DNA from: a virus
IMG/VR virus record: IMGVR_UViG_3300027898_000011
Span: 1 to 54,116 of that record
Strand: one strand, 5' to 3'
DNA length: 54,116 nucleotides
Part shown: positions 3,020 to 54,116 of the stretch, one piece after another
How positions within the stretch are numbered: position 1 is the first letter of the stretch
Layout: the number at the start of each line of letters is the position of its first letter
Position numbers and translations under genes: made by a program
Notes under the pieces: model-generated
Seen by the model: only the letters and a program-made list of their open reading frames with translations
Database searches by the model: none
What the model was told of the DNA's origin: nothing

Positions 3020-3274
3020 ATGCCGGATCACATCATCTGCGGTTGCGGCCGCACGCACGACATGCCCGAACTCACCCGATTGCGGGCGGAGGTGGAGAGG
3101 TTGAGGGAGACGCTGTTAAACACCCTTGCCAATCTTGTTGCGGCGCACAGTCTATTGTCTCGTGGCGGCAAAAAAGCAGCACCGTCTGACAAAATGTTTG
3201 CGCAGATGCTCGCTGATTACGAAGCGGCGATTGAACGCGCACGCGCAGCCCTGAAGGAGCCCGGCAATGAGTGA
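3020..3274 (+). CDS. Small coiled-coil protein with N-terminal Cys motif
   Basis: 84 residues starting with a CGCGRTHD knuckle, then a leucine/glutamate heptad-like helix ([20 protein letters not shown]) and a second helix ([14 protein letters not shown]). A strong G-rich ribosome binding site precedes the ATG. The C-terminus overlaps the next gene by eight bases. Small CxC plus coiled-coil proteins are common in phage early regions, but I know no function for this one. Confidence 0.6.
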
Positions 3275-3515
3275 GGAAGGCGGTTTGTCCCGCGCGCTCG
3301 CATTAGAAACGGCGGAGGTATGGGAAACTATGGCCGAAATGGAGAAGGGCGCGCATCCGGCCAGACGCGAAACGCTGCGGGCGTGTGCCGATATGCTGCG
3401 GATGCTGTCTGAGCCCAAGCCACGGTTAGATTGCCCGCACGCCGACCCGTTTCGCTATTGCCCTACCTGCGTTGTCAAACCTTGCCCCATTGGCCTTGGA
3501 GACAACACACCATGA
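3267..3515 (+). CDS. Hypothetical protein with C-terminal Cys cluster
   Basis: 82 residues. The ATG is preceded by AAGGAG at good spacing inside the previous gene. A helical N-terminal half is followed by a cysteine cluster ([14 protein letters not shown] and KPCP) that could bind one zinc ion. It ends in TGA overlapping the ATG of the next gene, and belongs to a run of cysteine-rich small proteins between 2641 and 4030. Confidence 0.6.
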
Positions 3516-3727
3516 CGGCTAACCCCTGCACCCCGCCGAAATGCCATGATTGCGGCAGGTTTATGAACGCCATGCAATCCGGCGTAGCGTGGAAAATGTG
3601 CTATAGCGGCTTTCCCCCAGAACCCGCTGAAGAAATCCACCGTTGCCTGGCATGCGTTGCCAAACTCGGCACGTTTACGCCGCAGCTTGGAATTGTGCCG
3701 GAGTATTCTTGCGGAGTTGTGTCATGA
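3512..3727 (+). CDS. Cys-rich small protein, first PCTPP-module gene
   Basis: 71 residues from the ATG at 3512, coupled by ATGA to the gene before. It begins [15 protein letters not shown]: the NPCTPP module shared with the next three genes, followed immediately by a CHDCG zinc-knuckle half. A second pair of cysteines (RCLAC) could complete a zinc ribbon. The longer open frame starting at 3431 overlaps the previous gene almost entirely and is rejected as the start. Function unknown. Confidence 0.65.
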
Positions 3728-3864
3728 CTAACCCGGCCCCCTGCACCCCGCCGTGTCCGAAAGCATGGCTGGACTCGCCGCTGTGCTGCAACTGGCAATG
3801 GCTCAAGACTGGCAGCGGTGACGTGTTTATGTGCCTGACCTGTGGAGCCACGCGCCATGACTAA
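3724..3864 (+). CDS. Cys-rich micro-protein, second PCTPP-module gene
   Basis: 46 residues from the ATG at 3724, again ATGA-coupled. It begins [15 protein letters not shown] and has further cysteine pairs (LCCNW and CLTCG), consistent with a small zinc ribbon. The first 30 bases match those of the next gene at 29 of 30 positions, while the remainder of the two proteins is unrelated. This points to duplication or transfer of the start module alone. Confidence 0.6.
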   Translation: MTNPAPCTPPCPKAWLDSPLCCNWQWLKTGSGDVFMCLTCGATRHD

Positions 3865-4030
3865 CCCCGCCCCCTGCACCCCGCCGCGCTGCAACGGCAT
3901 GGGCAGAAACGCCGAATGGCCGAAGTCGCTTCTGTTCTACTTCGACCGCGTGATGACGGACGATCAGATGCGCTATTTGCAAGAGGTTATGCAGCGGGCT
4001 TGTGCCTGCATGCCGGAGGATTTGCTGTGA
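3857..4030 (+). CDS. Small protein, third PCTPP-module gene
   Basis: 57 residues from the ATG at 3857, overlapping the previous gene by eight bases. It begins [16 protein letters not shown] and then continues as an unrelated, mostly helical protein (DQMRYLQEVMQRACACM). It lacks a complete zinc ribbon. The stop TGA overlaps the GTG start of the next gene. I recognise no family. Confidence 0.6.
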   Translation: MTNPAPCTPPRCNGMGRNAEWPKSLLFYFDRVMTDDQMRYLQEVMQRACACMPEDLL

Positions 4031-4491
4031 CAAGCACCCCCTGCACCCCGCCGAACGGAACACGGGAGGGGACGTGGCATGATTTCGTGCACGACGATCC
4101 CCGCAGGACACACAGATTGCGATGGAACGGCTCGCGGTATCAAGGCGTGGGTATAGGCGGATATTTGTCCCCCGAGGTTTTAGCAGCCAACGGGTTTCGT
4201 TATCTCGGCCGCGTGGAGGCGGAAAGCGCGACGGTGACGCTTACCAGCACAACACTTGACGGCGCATCTACAGGGCTCGTTGTTCCGACCGGTCCGGCGG
4301 ATTGGGAGCGCATGAAAGCCGCCCCCACCCCATCCCCCAGCGATGCGCTGCTGAGGGAGGTCGCGGACTGGATGGGTCACAAGATTGATTGCGCCGTATG
4401 GGAGACCAACGCGCGGACAGCCAACCGGCCAATAGACTGCACATGCGGGCGGGACGCGCTGCAAACCCGCATATTTCGCCACCTCGCGTGA
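4027..4491 (+). CDS. Hypothetical protein, fourth PCTPP-module gene
   Basis: 154 residues if started at the GTG at 4027, which overlaps the preceding stop (GTGA) and gives the N-terminus MTSTPCTPPNGT. This start is chosen because it places the shared PCTPP module at the same position as in the three genes before it. The open frame extends upstream to 3916, but that part lies within the previous gene. The middle (RLRWNGSRYQGVGIGGYL) is a possible small beta domain. The C-terminus has a cysteine pair (IDCTCG). No family recognised. Confidence 0.6.
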   Translation: MTSTPCTPPNGTREGTWHDFVHDDPRRTHRLRWNGSRYQGVGIGGYLSPEVLAANGFRYLGRVEAESATVTLTSTTLDGASTGLVVPTGPADWERMKAAPTPSPSDALLREVADWMGHKIDCAVWETNARTANRPIDCTCGRDALQTRIFRHLA

Positions 4492-46712: not shown

Positions 46713-46795
46713 TGGTGCCCGTGGAGGGACTTGAACCCCCACTCCGAAAAAGCGGAGCTTAAATCCGCTGCGTCTACCAATTCCGCCACACGGGC
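46713..46795 (-). tRNA. tRNA-Leu (UAA)
   Basis: Class II tRNA of 83 bases including an encoded CCA. Acceptor stem GCCCGTG/CACGGGC, A discriminator, D arm with GGTAGA, anticodon loop TTTAAGC between GCGGA and TCCGC, a variable arm, and T loop TTCAAGT. Reads UUA. Confidence 0.93.
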
Positions 46796-46799
46796 TCTC

Positions 46800-46873
46800 T
46801 GGTTCCGGGGGCTGGATTTGAACCAACATAACAAAGACCAAAGCCTTGTGTCCTACCATTAGACGACCCCGGA
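46800..46873 (-). tRNA. tRNA-Gln (UUG)
   Basis: 74 bases with encoded CCA. Acceptor TCCGGGG/CCCCGGA, U8 present, D arm GTCTAATGGTAGGAC, anticodon loop CTTTGGT (anticodon TTG), T loop TTCAAAT. The U1-A72 pair is a known feature of glutamine tRNAs. Reads CAA. Confidence 0.92.
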
Positions 46874-46878
46874 ATATC

Positions 46879-46954
46879 TGGACCCCCAGACAGGACTCGA
46901 ACCTGCATCCTCCGAACTAGAAAATCAGCGCTCGCCCAGTTGAGCTACTGAGGG
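46879..46954 (-). tRNA. tRNA-Arg (UCU)
   Basis: 76 bases with encoded CCA. Acceptor CCCTCAG/CTGGGGG with a G-T pair, D arm GCTCAACTGGGCGAGC, anticodon loop TTTCTAG (anticodon TCT), T loop TTCGAGT. The closing pair of the anticodon stem is T-T, and the discriminator base is T, so charging may be atypical. Reads AGA. Confidence 0.85.
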
Positions 46955-46959
46955 TAAGC

Positions 46960-47035
46960 TGGCGTCCCTTGCAGGAGTCGAACCTACGTTTGCCCCCTGA
47001 GAAGGGGCTGTCCTAAGCCGCTAGACGAAAGGGAC
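46960..47035 (-). tRNA. tRNA-Glu (CUC)
   Basis: 76 bases with encoded CCA. Acceptor GTCCCTT/AAGGGAC, G discriminator, D arm beginning TCGTCTAG as in bacterial glutamate tRNAs, anticodon loop TTCTCAG between GCCCC and GGGGC (anticodon CTC). Reads GAG. Confidence 0.92.
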
Positions 47036-47040
47036 TAACT

Positions 47041-47116
47041 TGGAGCCCGGGGCGGGACTTGAACCCGCAACCTGCGGTTTACAAAACCGCTACTCTGCCA
47101 TTGAGCTACCCAGGGC
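47041..47116 (-). tRNA. tRNA-Thr (UGU)
   Basis: 76 bases with encoded CCA. Acceptor GCCCTGG/CCCGGGC with one mismatch at pair 5-68, anticodon stem GCGGT/ACCGC around TTTGTAA (anticodon TGT), T loop TTCAAGT. Reads ACA. Confidence 0.9.
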
Positions 47117-47175
47117 GTATTCGGTCGGTTGCAAGTATGGACCCATGCAACCGGAGGCCCGACGAGCCCCTTGTC

Positions 47176-47217
47176 AAAAAGCGGGTTCAGAGGGGAACTG
47201 TGCAAACCTCTGAACCC
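47176..47217 (-). terminator. Strong hairpin inside the tRNA array
   Basis: On the minus strand GGGTTCAGAGG (47217-47207) pairs perfectly over 11 bases with CCTCTGAACCC (47193-47183) around a 13-base loop, followed by GC and five T residues. It sits between the CAU tRNA and the threonine tRNA. It fits an intrinsic terminator, or an RNA-processing hairpin separating the two halves of the array. Confidence 0.65.
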
Positions 47218-47346
47218 AAAGACCGTATCCGCCCACACGCCGACACGGCCTAACTTTGGCGCACGGGGTTGTCGAAGTCCCGCCGCCTATCCCTCCCTCA
47301 CATATGGGGGAGGGACTACCCGGGTGGAGTCAGGCCCGGGTCGTGT

Positions 47347-47423
47347 TGGTGGCGGGAACCGGATTTGAACCGGTAACCAAGTCGTTATGAGCGACCCGCT
47401 CTGCCTGATTGAGCTATCCCGCG
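47347..47423 (-). tRNA. tRNA with CAU anticodon (Met or Ile2)
   Basis: 77 bases with encoded CCA and A discriminator. Anticodon loop CTCATAA, identical to that of bacterial initiator tRNA. Aligned on U8, the first base is C facing C72, an unpaired 1-72 position as in initiators; but the anticodon stem lacks the three G-C pairs of initiators and the D stem is elongator-like. It could be elongator Met, Ile2 (after modification) or an initiator-like hybrid. Confidence 0.88.
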
Positions 47424-47429
47424 TTTATA

Positions 47430-47505
47430 TGGCTGGCAAGGTAGGACTCGAACCTACGATGGGCACATTAACAGTGTGCTGCTTTACCGACTAAGCTACT
47501 TGCCA
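47430..47505 (-). tRNA. tRNA-Asn (GUU)
   Basis: 76 bases with encoded CCA. Acceptor TGGCAAG/CTTGCCA, G discriminator, anticodon stem GCACA/TGTGC around CTGTTAA (anticodon GTT), T arm GTAGG TTCGAGT CCTAC. Reads AAC and AAU. Confidence 0.93.
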
Positions 47506-48552: not shown

Positions 48553-48764
48553 GACGTTTCCTTTTTATAACGGCGATGCTCTTTCAGCAAAGCGGCAATC
48601 GCGGCTTCTTCGGTTTCCTCCATCTGCCGCCAATCTGTTAGCTTGTGATGCCACCGAAAGCCCGGGCCACGAGGATACAACTCGCCTACCAAACAAGGTC
48701 GCCCTTCGGCGTCTTCCTCGTATAGCAGCCAAAACGTATCTTCGTATTCTTCAAGCTTTATCAT
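48549..48764 (-). CDS. Small hypothetical protein, 71 aa
   Basis: ATG overlaps the terminase stop (ATGA), and its stop overlaps the methyltransferase start (GTGA), so the three are coupled. Acidic, with aromatic strands (EEYEDTFWLLYEEDAEGRPC) and a C-terminal helix ending RRYKKETS. No family recognised. Confidence 0.6.
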   Translation of the reverse strand: MIKLEEYEDTFWLLYEEDAEGRPCLVGELYPRGPGFRWHHKLTDWRQMEETEEAAIAALLKEHRRYKKETS

Positions 48765-51076
48765 ATAACTAACAATCCTCGACTCTCATAAGGCGACCGA
48801 ACCGGTCCGGTGTCCAAGGTGGCCCGGCCTACGCACATAATCAAGGCTACCGGACTATCGATTTTCTTACTTTCCTGTTCTTTTACCGGGTACACGTTGT
48901 CCTTGTTGTCCCGGCGCGACACCACGTTGCCAATTTGCCACGTCATAGGGTCCGAGGCACCGCAGTTATGGTGCAGCTTTCCGCCGATGATCCACGAGTC
49001 CAGCGTCTTCATAGGGTCCGACATGGTTTGAATCGTCTGGCGATACTCCACCATGTTGACGCCCTGCTCCATAAGGCGCGTGGCAACGTACGTGGCCTGG
49101 AACGGATCGTAGCAGCAATCCGCCACCGCAAACTTTTTACAGGCGTCCAGCACATCCTCTTCTATCCGGCTGTAGTCGATGATGTTGCCATCCGTTACGT
49201 CCAGCAAGCCCTCTTCGCGCCATTGCTGATAGTGCGCGTTTTTTGGGTCTTCTACTGTAAACTCTGGCAGATAAACCTTGCCGTAGCGAGCATAGTGACC
49301 GTCTCCGAGCGGGAACAGCATTTCCAGGGCGGCCAAGTCCACCTTGGAGGCCAAGTCAAGAGCGATCCAGCACCGCATACCACGCATAGACTCTAACGGT
49401 GGGGCTGCGGGACATTTAGCCCAAGACTCTACGTTGAAATAGGCTTGGCGGCTGTTAACCCACATATTCAGGTGCTTTGTCTTGAACCGGCCCTGGTCGC
49501 GCGGGTTGCGAATAGCCGCCTGCTGCATGTCAAGCAGGTATTCTTCACCCACCGACACACCCATGTTAGGGTTTGCTTTGCGTAGCGAAGCAGGATCGGC
49601 CCAATCGTCTGCCGGAAAGCTTACTTTAAGACCGGATTCGGTCCATTCTGCTGCCTGTGTTTTGCAAATATTCCAATGCCGCTCTGACGCCCTCTTCGCT
49701 ATCTCCAAGAAAGCCAATCGCCGCGTTGCACTGCCTGCAAAGCAGTCCCCTAACATTTCCTCCGCTGTGGCAGTGATCCACGCAAAGGTCTTTTTCCATT
49801 TTGCAGACGGGGCATCTTCCTTGACATTCCGAGTGTAACTTGTCGTATTGCTCAGAAGTAAGTCCGTATTTTCTAAGTCTGGCTCTTTCCCTAACGTATT
49901 CTCGATTGCCTTGCCTCCAACGCTCCGAATTGTTGTGTACGGCGTCTGGCTTCTCGTCGGCGTATTTTCGCCTAGCAAGTCTGAGATTTTCTTTTCGGGT
50001 CGGGCTTGTTCTAAGTAACTCTTTGTCGTAGCAATATTTGCAGAGTCCTTTGACCTTAGCGAGTCTGTCCGGGTGGTTGGGACAAGTGGGTTTGCCTTCG
50101 TCTGATTGCGCAGCGTGACAGCTTTTTCCTGACATATCTCTAACCAAGTGTCCTTTAGCCATTGCTCGTCTAACTGAGCACCATTGTCTACTAAAAATTT
50201 TAGCGCTTCTACCCCAGACAAATGAGCGTCGTAAGGCGCGGAGTCAAGCGTGTATATAAGGGCAAACGATCTTTCATCTTCTATAGCCCCAGACAAAACA
50301 TCTTGCATAACAAGTTGTTTGTTATAGCAAGGGCCTGCAAGATTATCACCAGCAGTAGTAATAATCCACAAAATAGGTTGGTCACGAGCGCCCATGCCTG
50401 TGATCATTGTGTCGTGGGCTTCAGAAGTATCGTGCTGGTGATACTCGTCAATCGCAGCAAAACTAGGGCTAGAACCATCCCCCGGCTTGCCAATAACAGG
50501 CTCAAACTTGCTGTTAGTTGCTGGTATGTTAATATTGCTAGCATTAACTCTTATGCCTTTGGCGGCCATCAAGTTAGGGCTATTGGCCACCATAGTTTTA
50601 GCGGGATTAAAAACTTCCCATGCTTGTTTTTCAGTGGTGGCGTTACAATAAATCTCTGCGCCGTTTTCGTTGTCGTATGCAAGCATGTAGACGCCAACAC
50701 CAGCAGTCAACAGAGACTTGCCATTTTTTCTCGGTATCAAAATGAAAACTTCGCGGAACCGTCGAAACCCGGTGCGCCGGTCCACCCAGCCAAACACCGA
50801 GCAAATAATGAACGCTTCCCAGGGTTCTAGGTGAATTAGCTCTTTGGACGCCGCCCACTTACCTTTGGTGTGAGGCAGTAGCTCCACCACCTTGCAGGGC
50901 CGCTCTGCCTTGACCGGATCAAACACCCAGCGAAAACCGCCTTGCTCTGCCCGCAGCATGTCGTTTTTATGCCGCTGGCAGGCAAGACGGACCCACCTGC
51001 AAGCGGGCTCTTTGCCGCTCAGCACGTCTTCTACATACTGAAACGCTTTGGTTACGTTAGGCGTTTTGTCGGTCAT
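48761..51076 (-). CDS. terL: Large terminase (TerL), with large internal insertion
   Basis: 771 codons as one open frame. ATPase: IPRKNGKS (114-121, Walker A), SFAAIDEYHQH (205-215, Walker B), WIITTAGDN (motif III). Nuclease: WIALDLASKVDLAAL (first Asp near 574), CCYDPFQATY and a final acidic region. HK97-type TerL proteins are about 550-570 residues and normally pass directly from IYTLD to DDW-x-x-KANPN. Here IYTLD ends at 278 and DDW begins at 490, so about 211 codons (roughly 49610-50242) appear inserted. An endonuclease VII-like gene occupies most of that stretch in another frame. Confidence 0.9.
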   Translation of the reverse strand: MTDKTPNVTKAFQYVEDVLSGKEPACRWVRLACQRHKNDMLRAEQGGFRWVFDPVKAERPCKVVELLPHTKGKWAASKELIHLEPWEAFIICSVFGWVDRRTGFRRFREVFILIPRKNGKSLLTAGVGVYMLAYDNENGAEIYCNATTEKQAWEVFNPAKTMVANSPNLMAAKGIRVNASNINIPATNSKFEPVIGKPGDGSSPSFAAIDEYHQHDTSEAHDTMITGMGARDQPILWIITTAGDNLAGPCYNKQLVMQDVLSGAIEDERSFALIYTLDSAPYDAHLSGVEALKFLVDNGAQLDEQWLKDTWLEICQEKAVTLRNQTKANPLVPTTRTDSLRSKDSANIATTKSYLEQARPEKKISDLLGENTPTRSQTPYTTIRSVGGKAIENTLGKEPDLENTDLLLSNTTSYTRNVKEDAPSAKWKKTFAWITATAEEMLGDCFAGSATRRLAFLEIAKRASERHWNICKTQAAEWTESGLKVSFPADDWADPASLRKANPNMGVSVGEEYLLDMQQAAIRNPRDQGRFKTKHLNMWVNSRQAYFNVESWAKCPAAPPLESMRGMRCWIALDLASKVDLAALEMLFPLGDGHYARYGKVYLPEFTVEDPKNAHYQQWREEGLLDVTDGNIIDYSRIEEDVLDACKKFAVADCCYDPFQATYVATRLMEQGVNMVEYRQTIQTMSDPMKTLDSWIIGGKLHHNCGASDPMTWQIGNVVSRRDNKDNVYPVKEQESKKIDSPVALIMCVGRATLDTGPVRSPYESRGLLVI
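49626..50162 (-). CDS. Endonuclease VII-like HNH nuclease nested in terL
   Basis: 178 residues, out of frame with the terminase gene and wholly inside it. N-terminal zinc-finger pattern (CPNHPDRLAKVKGLCKYCYD) and a C-terminal recombination endonuclease VII core: CPVCKMEKDLCVDHCHSGG, VRGLLCRQCNAAIGFLGDSE, with DHCH and the closing CxxCN intact. The conserved motif set makes the gene certain as a protein family match. Free-standing members of this family behave as homing endonucleases. It stops about 15 bases before terminase homology resumes. I do not see group I intron core elements around it. Confidence 0.82.
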   Translation of the reverse strand: MAKGHLVRDMSGKSCHAAQSDEGKPTCPNHPDRLAKVKGLCKYCYDKELLRTSPTRKENLRLARRKYADEKPDAVHNNSERWRQGNREYVRERARLRKYGLTSEQYDKLHSECQGRCPVCKMEKDLCVDHCHSGGNVRGLLCRQCNAAIGFLGDSEEGVRAALEYLQNTGSRMDRIRS

Positions 51077-53588: not shown

Positions 53589-54005
53589 ATAGTCCGTTTT
53601 CGGTGGGTTTCAATGGCGAATTTAGAAAAAGCGCAAAATATAACGTTTGTCACGCACAACCAGGCACACTGTTGCAAATATGTCACAGTTAACGGGCAAC
53701 TTGCACGCGGCAAAATTTGACCCAACACCGGTTGCTCGGTTACAGCTATGCGTCAGGCGAAACCCCACCCCTCCATCCATGCGCCAGACGCGGGGCTTGC
53801 CTACCTGCGGTTGCAATTTACAACCTGCGGTTGCCGTAGGCTCTGCACCGCAGAGTCATCTGGCATGGTTATTGATTCGTTGCGTGGCACGCGCCTTGCA
53901 TTGGCATGACCGATTGGTCAGCGTAATAGAAACTTATTCGATTATGCAGGCGGTATGATGTGCTGCGTTAGTGAACAATGGTAAGTTAACCGCGTTAAGG
54001 CTGGC
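53589..54005. other. Non-coding region at the right end
   Basis: About 400 bases without a convincing gene. Contains the 12-bp direct repeat ACCTGCGGTTGC at 53803-53814 and 53823-53834. The late promoter for the leftward genes should lie here, but I cannot assign a reliable -35/-10 pair. Probably one unit with positions 1-1183 if the genome is circular or circularly permuted. Confidence 0.5.
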
Positions 54006-54116
54006 GGTGCTGGGGCTGCCTGGGGCGTGCGGTCAGGCCGGTGCTGGGGCTGCCTGGGGCGTGCGGTCAGGCCGGTGCTGGGGCTGCCAGGGGCGTGCGG
54101 TCAGGCCGGTGCTGGG
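54006..54116. repeat. 34-bp tandem repeats at the window end
   Basis: Unit GGTGCTGGGGCTGCCTGGGG followed by CGTGCGGTCAGGCC. Copies at 54006-54039, 54040-54073 (identical) and 54074-54107 (one change, CCTGG to CCAGG), then the first nine bases of a fourth copy at the very end. GC-rich and direct. The array may continue beyond the window; it could be an origin, a packaging/terminal element, or the point where assembly stopped. Confidence 0.85.

Follow-up and report, generated by a model that had tools for sequence, protein, structure and literature searches.

A gene start repeated in frame on four overlapping phage genes, probably copied from the last gene of the array

Mobile regulatory cassettes of T4-type phages are intergenic pieces of DNA that bear promoters. 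In phage mosaicism by illegitimate recombination and partial duplication of a gene's 5' end, non-homologous bodies are joined to a common end at a domain border. In cluster K mycobacteriophages, the start-associated sequence (SAS, with the related ESAS) is a 13-bp sequence (GGGATAGGAGCCC) that contains AGGAG and is located 3-7 bp before the start codon; SAS has 11-19 copies per genome and is conserved across phages (PMC3203893). It is established that bacteria can couple translation where stop and start codons overlap (PMC6728339, PMC10666635). The window analysed here is a whole viral record of 54,116 bases. It comes from a tailed phage that carries head genes of the HK97 type, a set of replication genes, and seven tRNA genes. 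Four of its consecutive genes, termed A to D, begin with copies of one short module:

3267..3515, plus strand: gene upstream of A; 82 aa, its stop overlapping the start of A (ATGA)
3512..3727, plus strand: gene A; 71 aa, CxxC...CxxC zinc-finger-like, N-terminus MTANPCTPP
3512..3538, plus strand: start module, copy 1 (gene A), ATGACGGCTAACCCCTGCACCCCGCCG; stops in both other frames
3724..3864, plus strand: gene B; 46 aa, Cys-rich
3724..3753, plus strand: start module, copy 2 (gene B), ATGACTAACCCGGCCCCCTGCACCCCGCCG
3857..4030, plus strand: gene C; 57 aa, body resembling the C-terminal module of phrog_36186-type proteins
3857..3886, plus strand: start module, copy 3 (gene C), ATGACTAACCCCGCCCCCTGCACCCCGCCG; provides the TAA stop of gene B
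4027..4491, plus strand: gene D; 154 aa, GTG start, first ~62 aa a small-protein family with a native CxPP N-terminus
4027..4053, plus strand: start module, copy 4 (gene D), probable ancestral copy, GTGACAAGCACCCCCTGCACCCCGCCG

Elsewhere in the record, the tRNA cluster occupies 46713-47505 on the minus strand (Leu, Gln, Arg, Glu, Thr, Met, and Asn), and its tRNAs were the sole matches in an Rfam search. The large terminase ORF (48761-51076, minus strand) contains an in-frame insertion of ~200 codons, such that TerL matches break at about residue 281 and resume at about residue 489, and this insertion is overlapped by an endonuclease VII-type HNH gene in a different frame (49626-50162, minus strand). 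The insertion had no Rfam match at E<=1, and has the appearance of an inserted homing endonuclease or intron through which the TerL frame has stayed open by chance. On its right, the record ends with a 34-bp tandem repeat of more than three copies (54005-54116), which may be an assembly end.

The first-pass annotation of this DNA had reported a 15-bp repeat (CCCTGCACCCCGCCG) occurring exactly four times, at 3524, 3739, 3872, and 4039, in frame in A, B, C, and D, and we confirmed this; no fifth copy was found anywhere in the 54-kb record with up to two mismatches allowed. The repeat had been assigned to codons 4-10, of which the early in-frame position stands but the exact codons do not, as PCTPP is encoded by codons 5-9 in A and D and by codons 6-10 in B and C. 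The core common to all four copies is 16 bp long (CCCCTGCACCCCGCCG). Genes A and D have 18 bp in common with equal spacing, and the two central copies, in B and C, are identical at 29 of 30 bases from the start codon, as had been noted, or at 30 of 31 when the preceding C is counted. In 200 mononucleotide shuffles of the record no 15-mer occurred more than twice. Given the peptide and the codon usage of the phage, four independent PCTPP peptides would be written with the same five codons with P = 3.5e-7, indicating that the module DNA was probably copied. Across the four copies there is no synonymous change in the 15-bp core. This codon identity argues for shared DNA ancestry or for a constraint at the DNA or RNA level, and not for convergence of the peptide; selection on the mRNA or DNA could also have kept the four copies identical.

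The start of each gene overlaps the preceding stop, through ATGA at A and B, through the 8-nt ATGACTAA at C, and through GTGA at D, the stop used being TGA before A, B, and D and the TAA of gene B before C. GGAG is found 7-10 nt upstream of all four starts and, together with the start itself, is the only feature that the sequences 5' of A-D have in common. For A, C, and D, and likewise for the three genes upstream, the annotated frame is the one favoured by codon usage; for B, this support is weak and another frame scores better. In the A, B, and C copies, each of the two alternative frames meets a stop within 12 nt of the start, the stop-bearing letters being ATGACTAA in B and C and ATGACGGCTAA in A, and the D copy has one such stop. 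Two-frame stops near the start were found at 4 of 40 other starts of the phage. From these stops, the A, B, and C copies are predicted to terminate an upstream gene whichever of the two other frames it uses and to restart translation at the same place, and would thus fit most upstream genes.

Comparable in this with the SAS, the module might be a functional start element, a translation-enhancing role having been suggested in the first-pass annotation, and might be kept identical because it serves to initiate or couple translation, whether as an RNA or protein target or through early Pro-Pro pausing. That identity extends to synonymous sites, and that the module always sits at an overlapping stop and start with GGAG upstream, would agree with such a role. 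However, no other gene of the phage has a copy, folding of the start regions of A-D yielded no common structure, and the module lies inside the coding sequence whereas SAS lies upstream of the start, and we therefore consider this explanation quite unlikely. The resemblance to SAS is that of a short, non-palindromic repeat at the starts of several unrelated small genes in a non-structural region; the module differs in its sequence, in its location at codons 5-10, in its four adjacent copies, and in having a probable source gene. Judged by sequence and position, it is not a member of SAS, which is the nearest described phenomenon and is much more widespread. Like termination-reinitiation pairs, A-D all have overlapping stop and start codons, but such overlaps are very common, and here part of the overlap is the repeated module itself. 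The mobile regulatory cassettes of T4-type phages similarly involve a small regulatory piece that moves between genes, although here the module is a coding start. The process at this locus is partial gene duplication within ordinary phage mosaicism. It differs from the usual mosaic junction in that one start appears to have been copied before three consecutive neighbours, and this threefold use of one start on consecutive genes, together with an identifiable donor, is what is unusual.

The donor is probably gene D, as judged from its homologues. The D protein begins MTSTPCTPP-NGTREGTWH, and a search with it returned two homologues from genomes in the order of Acetobacter oeni, both with the native motif (MNERNCMPPDDEAWRTWHW and MTDLACLPPDGTTWNTLHW); further homologues were obtained by profile searches in smaller groups of that bacterial family. 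The family spans ~60 residues with the pattern MTxxxCxPP[DEN]GTxxxTxHWL...W...RYxGPCxPP, and CxPP is present in nine homologues (L131, L132, L134, L138, L135, L145, L146, L147, and L150), in which the peptide is conserved while its codons vary. CxPP is absent from the relatives L133, L148, L151, and L153-L158, and a more distant branch has another Pro-rich N-terminus; D itself has CxPP near codons 6-9 followed by [DEN]GT, as the family pattern specifies. A profile built from nine homologues with D left out recovered D at 31.6 bits (E 4e-7 among 50,333 ORFs). The body of D alone scored 19 bits against the family profile, the module contributing ~16 bits more, while A, B, and C scored 0.3, -2.7, and -2.6 bits, with alignment restricted to the module, placing their bodies outside the D family. 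As the D homologues came from queries that included the N-terminus and were thus biased towards CxPP-bearing matches, they were re-ranked on the body only to guard against this bias. This revealed that the top two, L131 and L132 (z 11.9 and 8.9), carry CxPP at the same codons, and that the third, L151, does not. The family's own N-terminus, M-T-x-x-x-C-x-P-P-[DEN]-G-T...HW, indicates that CTPP is native to D. Two D-family paralogues on separate contigs of one genome (L134 and L138, genome G692) have nearly identical first 20 residues and an RYVGPCVPPQ end, with divergent middles.

The homologues of A and C, which are few and distant, lack this N-terminus. An unannotated ORF on the Bradyrhizobium sp. 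ISRA432 plasmid NZ_CP094518 matches residues 9-70 of A (tblastn E 2e-7, 42% identity); it begins MNDMPRCDRCGRF (MNDMPRCDRCGRFHNS...), has no CxPP, and in the alignment its native Pro-Arg-Cys start falls precisely where the module of A ends. The body of C matches the phrog_36186 profile weakly on its own (P0003 E 0.002, residues 8-48), an assignment backed by its homologue L139, which matches at the same profile positions with E 1e-4. L139 encodes a protein of 126 aa in a genome of the same bacterial family as the D relatives (E 2e-8), running MTDTQKTITPHQ...RVRGVGRVADEP without CxPP. Gene C also resembles the C-terminal module of Pseudomonas phage proteins, mostly much larger and likewise without CxPP, and all of its homologues have another, longer sequence in place of the module region. 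Directly 5' of the C homologue, L139 contains a short stretch similar to the C-terminus of A (E 0.005), an indication that A and C already lay side by side when neither had acquired the module. Gene B yielded no confident homologue, and the weak matches of A and B within the same bacterial family were mostly attributable to chance. Among the Pseudomonas phage proteins, L019-L024 are of very unequal lengths and have one module in common (PEVSGIGRD...PTDDDLRAIHDGLRSLAAAPGK); these small early genes form a modular patchwork.

These comparisons bear on two further explanations. If the repeat encoded a peptide signal common to the four N-termini, serving in targeting or cleavage, as had also been proposed, or in the binding of a partner, the conservation of CxPP as protein with varying codons in the D family would be in keeping with it, but that N-terminus is missing from the A and C homologues, and exact codon identity is not expected from selection on the peptide alone; we judge such a signal very improbable. 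Whole-gene tandem duplication followed by divergence of the bodies would account for the tandem arrangement and for the Cys-rich bodies of A and B with their CLxC motif. Yet the homologues of the bodies belong to different families, with the 15-bp core free of synonymous change, and beyond the module neither DNA nor protein of A-D is convincingly similar (p 0.05-0.8), making this explanation extremely improbable. The earlier statements that the proteins differ after the module, and that only the start region and N-terminus are repeated so that this is not ordinary gene duplication, are thus upheld, and the finding that had been named as pointing to plain duplication, four genes otherwise homologous, was not obtained.

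We also searched for the module outside this record. The exact module had a single match in IMG/VR, L005, where the 15-mer is read in another frame of a ParB-like gene, and a degenerate peptide start pattern returned 12 stretches, mostly frame-broken and none convincing as a relative. Single-protein searches of viral and genome contigs identified no close relatives of A, C, D, or the DNA polymerase; no closely related phage was found, and hence no ancestral arrangement lacking the module was seen. With the SNF2-type helicase as query, phage relatives were recovered at 12 loci (best identity 55%), and the module was present at none of them. A TerL search of genome contigs gave 80 prophages of many hosts, none of which was assigned as host. 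In 1.6 Mb around these 80 prophage TerL genes, one pair of neighbours shares 15 in-frame start bases, and the internal-codon control also gave one; in 297 kb surrounding 19 loci of the D or C family, there was again one such pair, with none in the control. The shared-start signature is rare. The pair from the second set, L149 (reverse strand 345-575 and 1486-2745, the same as L195), lies in an Acetobacter-related genome and consists of genes 1.1 kb apart with 27 of 28 bases (PPAEHEGAP) in common near their starts and unrelated continuations. One of the two genes matches the D-family profile with E 1.9e-6 in one search and only 0.002 in another, and by sequence this pair may have arisen independently from a donor of a similar kind. 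In a Halomonas prophage (L098, positions 334 and 2376), two genes begin MNTAFQ with 15 identical bases and then differ.

According to the first-pass annotation, the repeated start could be a recombination seam for swapping small accessory genes. In its recurrent form, such a seam would be a standing site at which different small genes are exchanged, with the repeat serving as homology. The layout of a module and a body four times over, with unrelated bodies, would suit this idea, and L149/L195 is a possible second case. However, in the searches of viral contigs, none of which was a close relative, the exact module was found at the start of no other gene, so that no different gene was seen behind it, and the signature occurs in only 1 of 19 regions around D-family and C-family loci and 1 of 80 TerL loci, the latter with a control of 1. 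Since our searches recovered the exact module at no gene start outside this record, the data lend no support to a standing system of cassette exchange, which we consider unlikely.

The explanation that best accounts for these data, and which we consider probable from sequence comparison, is that illegitimate recombination placed copies of the 5' end of D on A, B, and C. The module would be the native 5' end of D, and the start codon and first nine codons of D, possibly with the ribosome-binding region, would have been copied onto the three small genes ahead of it through illegitimate or short-homology recombination. The B/C pair, with its 29 of 30 bp in common, would be the latest step, either from C to B or from B to C. 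Each acceptor would have lost its own N-terminus, so that in A the module now directly precedes a native P-K/R-C-x-x-C-G-R-F zinc-finger start, and in C it precedes what in relatives is the C-terminal module of longer proteins. The copies may have been tolerated as ready stop/start junctions that enable translational coupling by termination-reinitiation, leaving the starts of A-D overlapping and probably translationally coupled. We infer these recombination events, their order, and the tolerance of the copies from the present-day sequence.

A broader and rather unlikely possibility is that the 5' ends of D-family genes act as a recurrent mobile gene start. Such a piece, short and equipped with a start codon, a brief Pro-rich N-terminus, and stops in the two other frames, would, when inserted out of frame, terminate the gene upstream and begin a new gene coupled to it. 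Were this true, phages would make new small genes from internal modules of larger ones, as for C, and L149/L195 would be an independent instance. The birth of tiny phage genes without assigned function is poorly understood. Here a probable donor and three acceptors can be named and the limits of the copied segment drawn, and this locus offers a concrete example of gene birth by start capture, and its signature, neighbouring overlapping genes with an identical in-frame start region and unrelated bodies, may be used to screen other phages.
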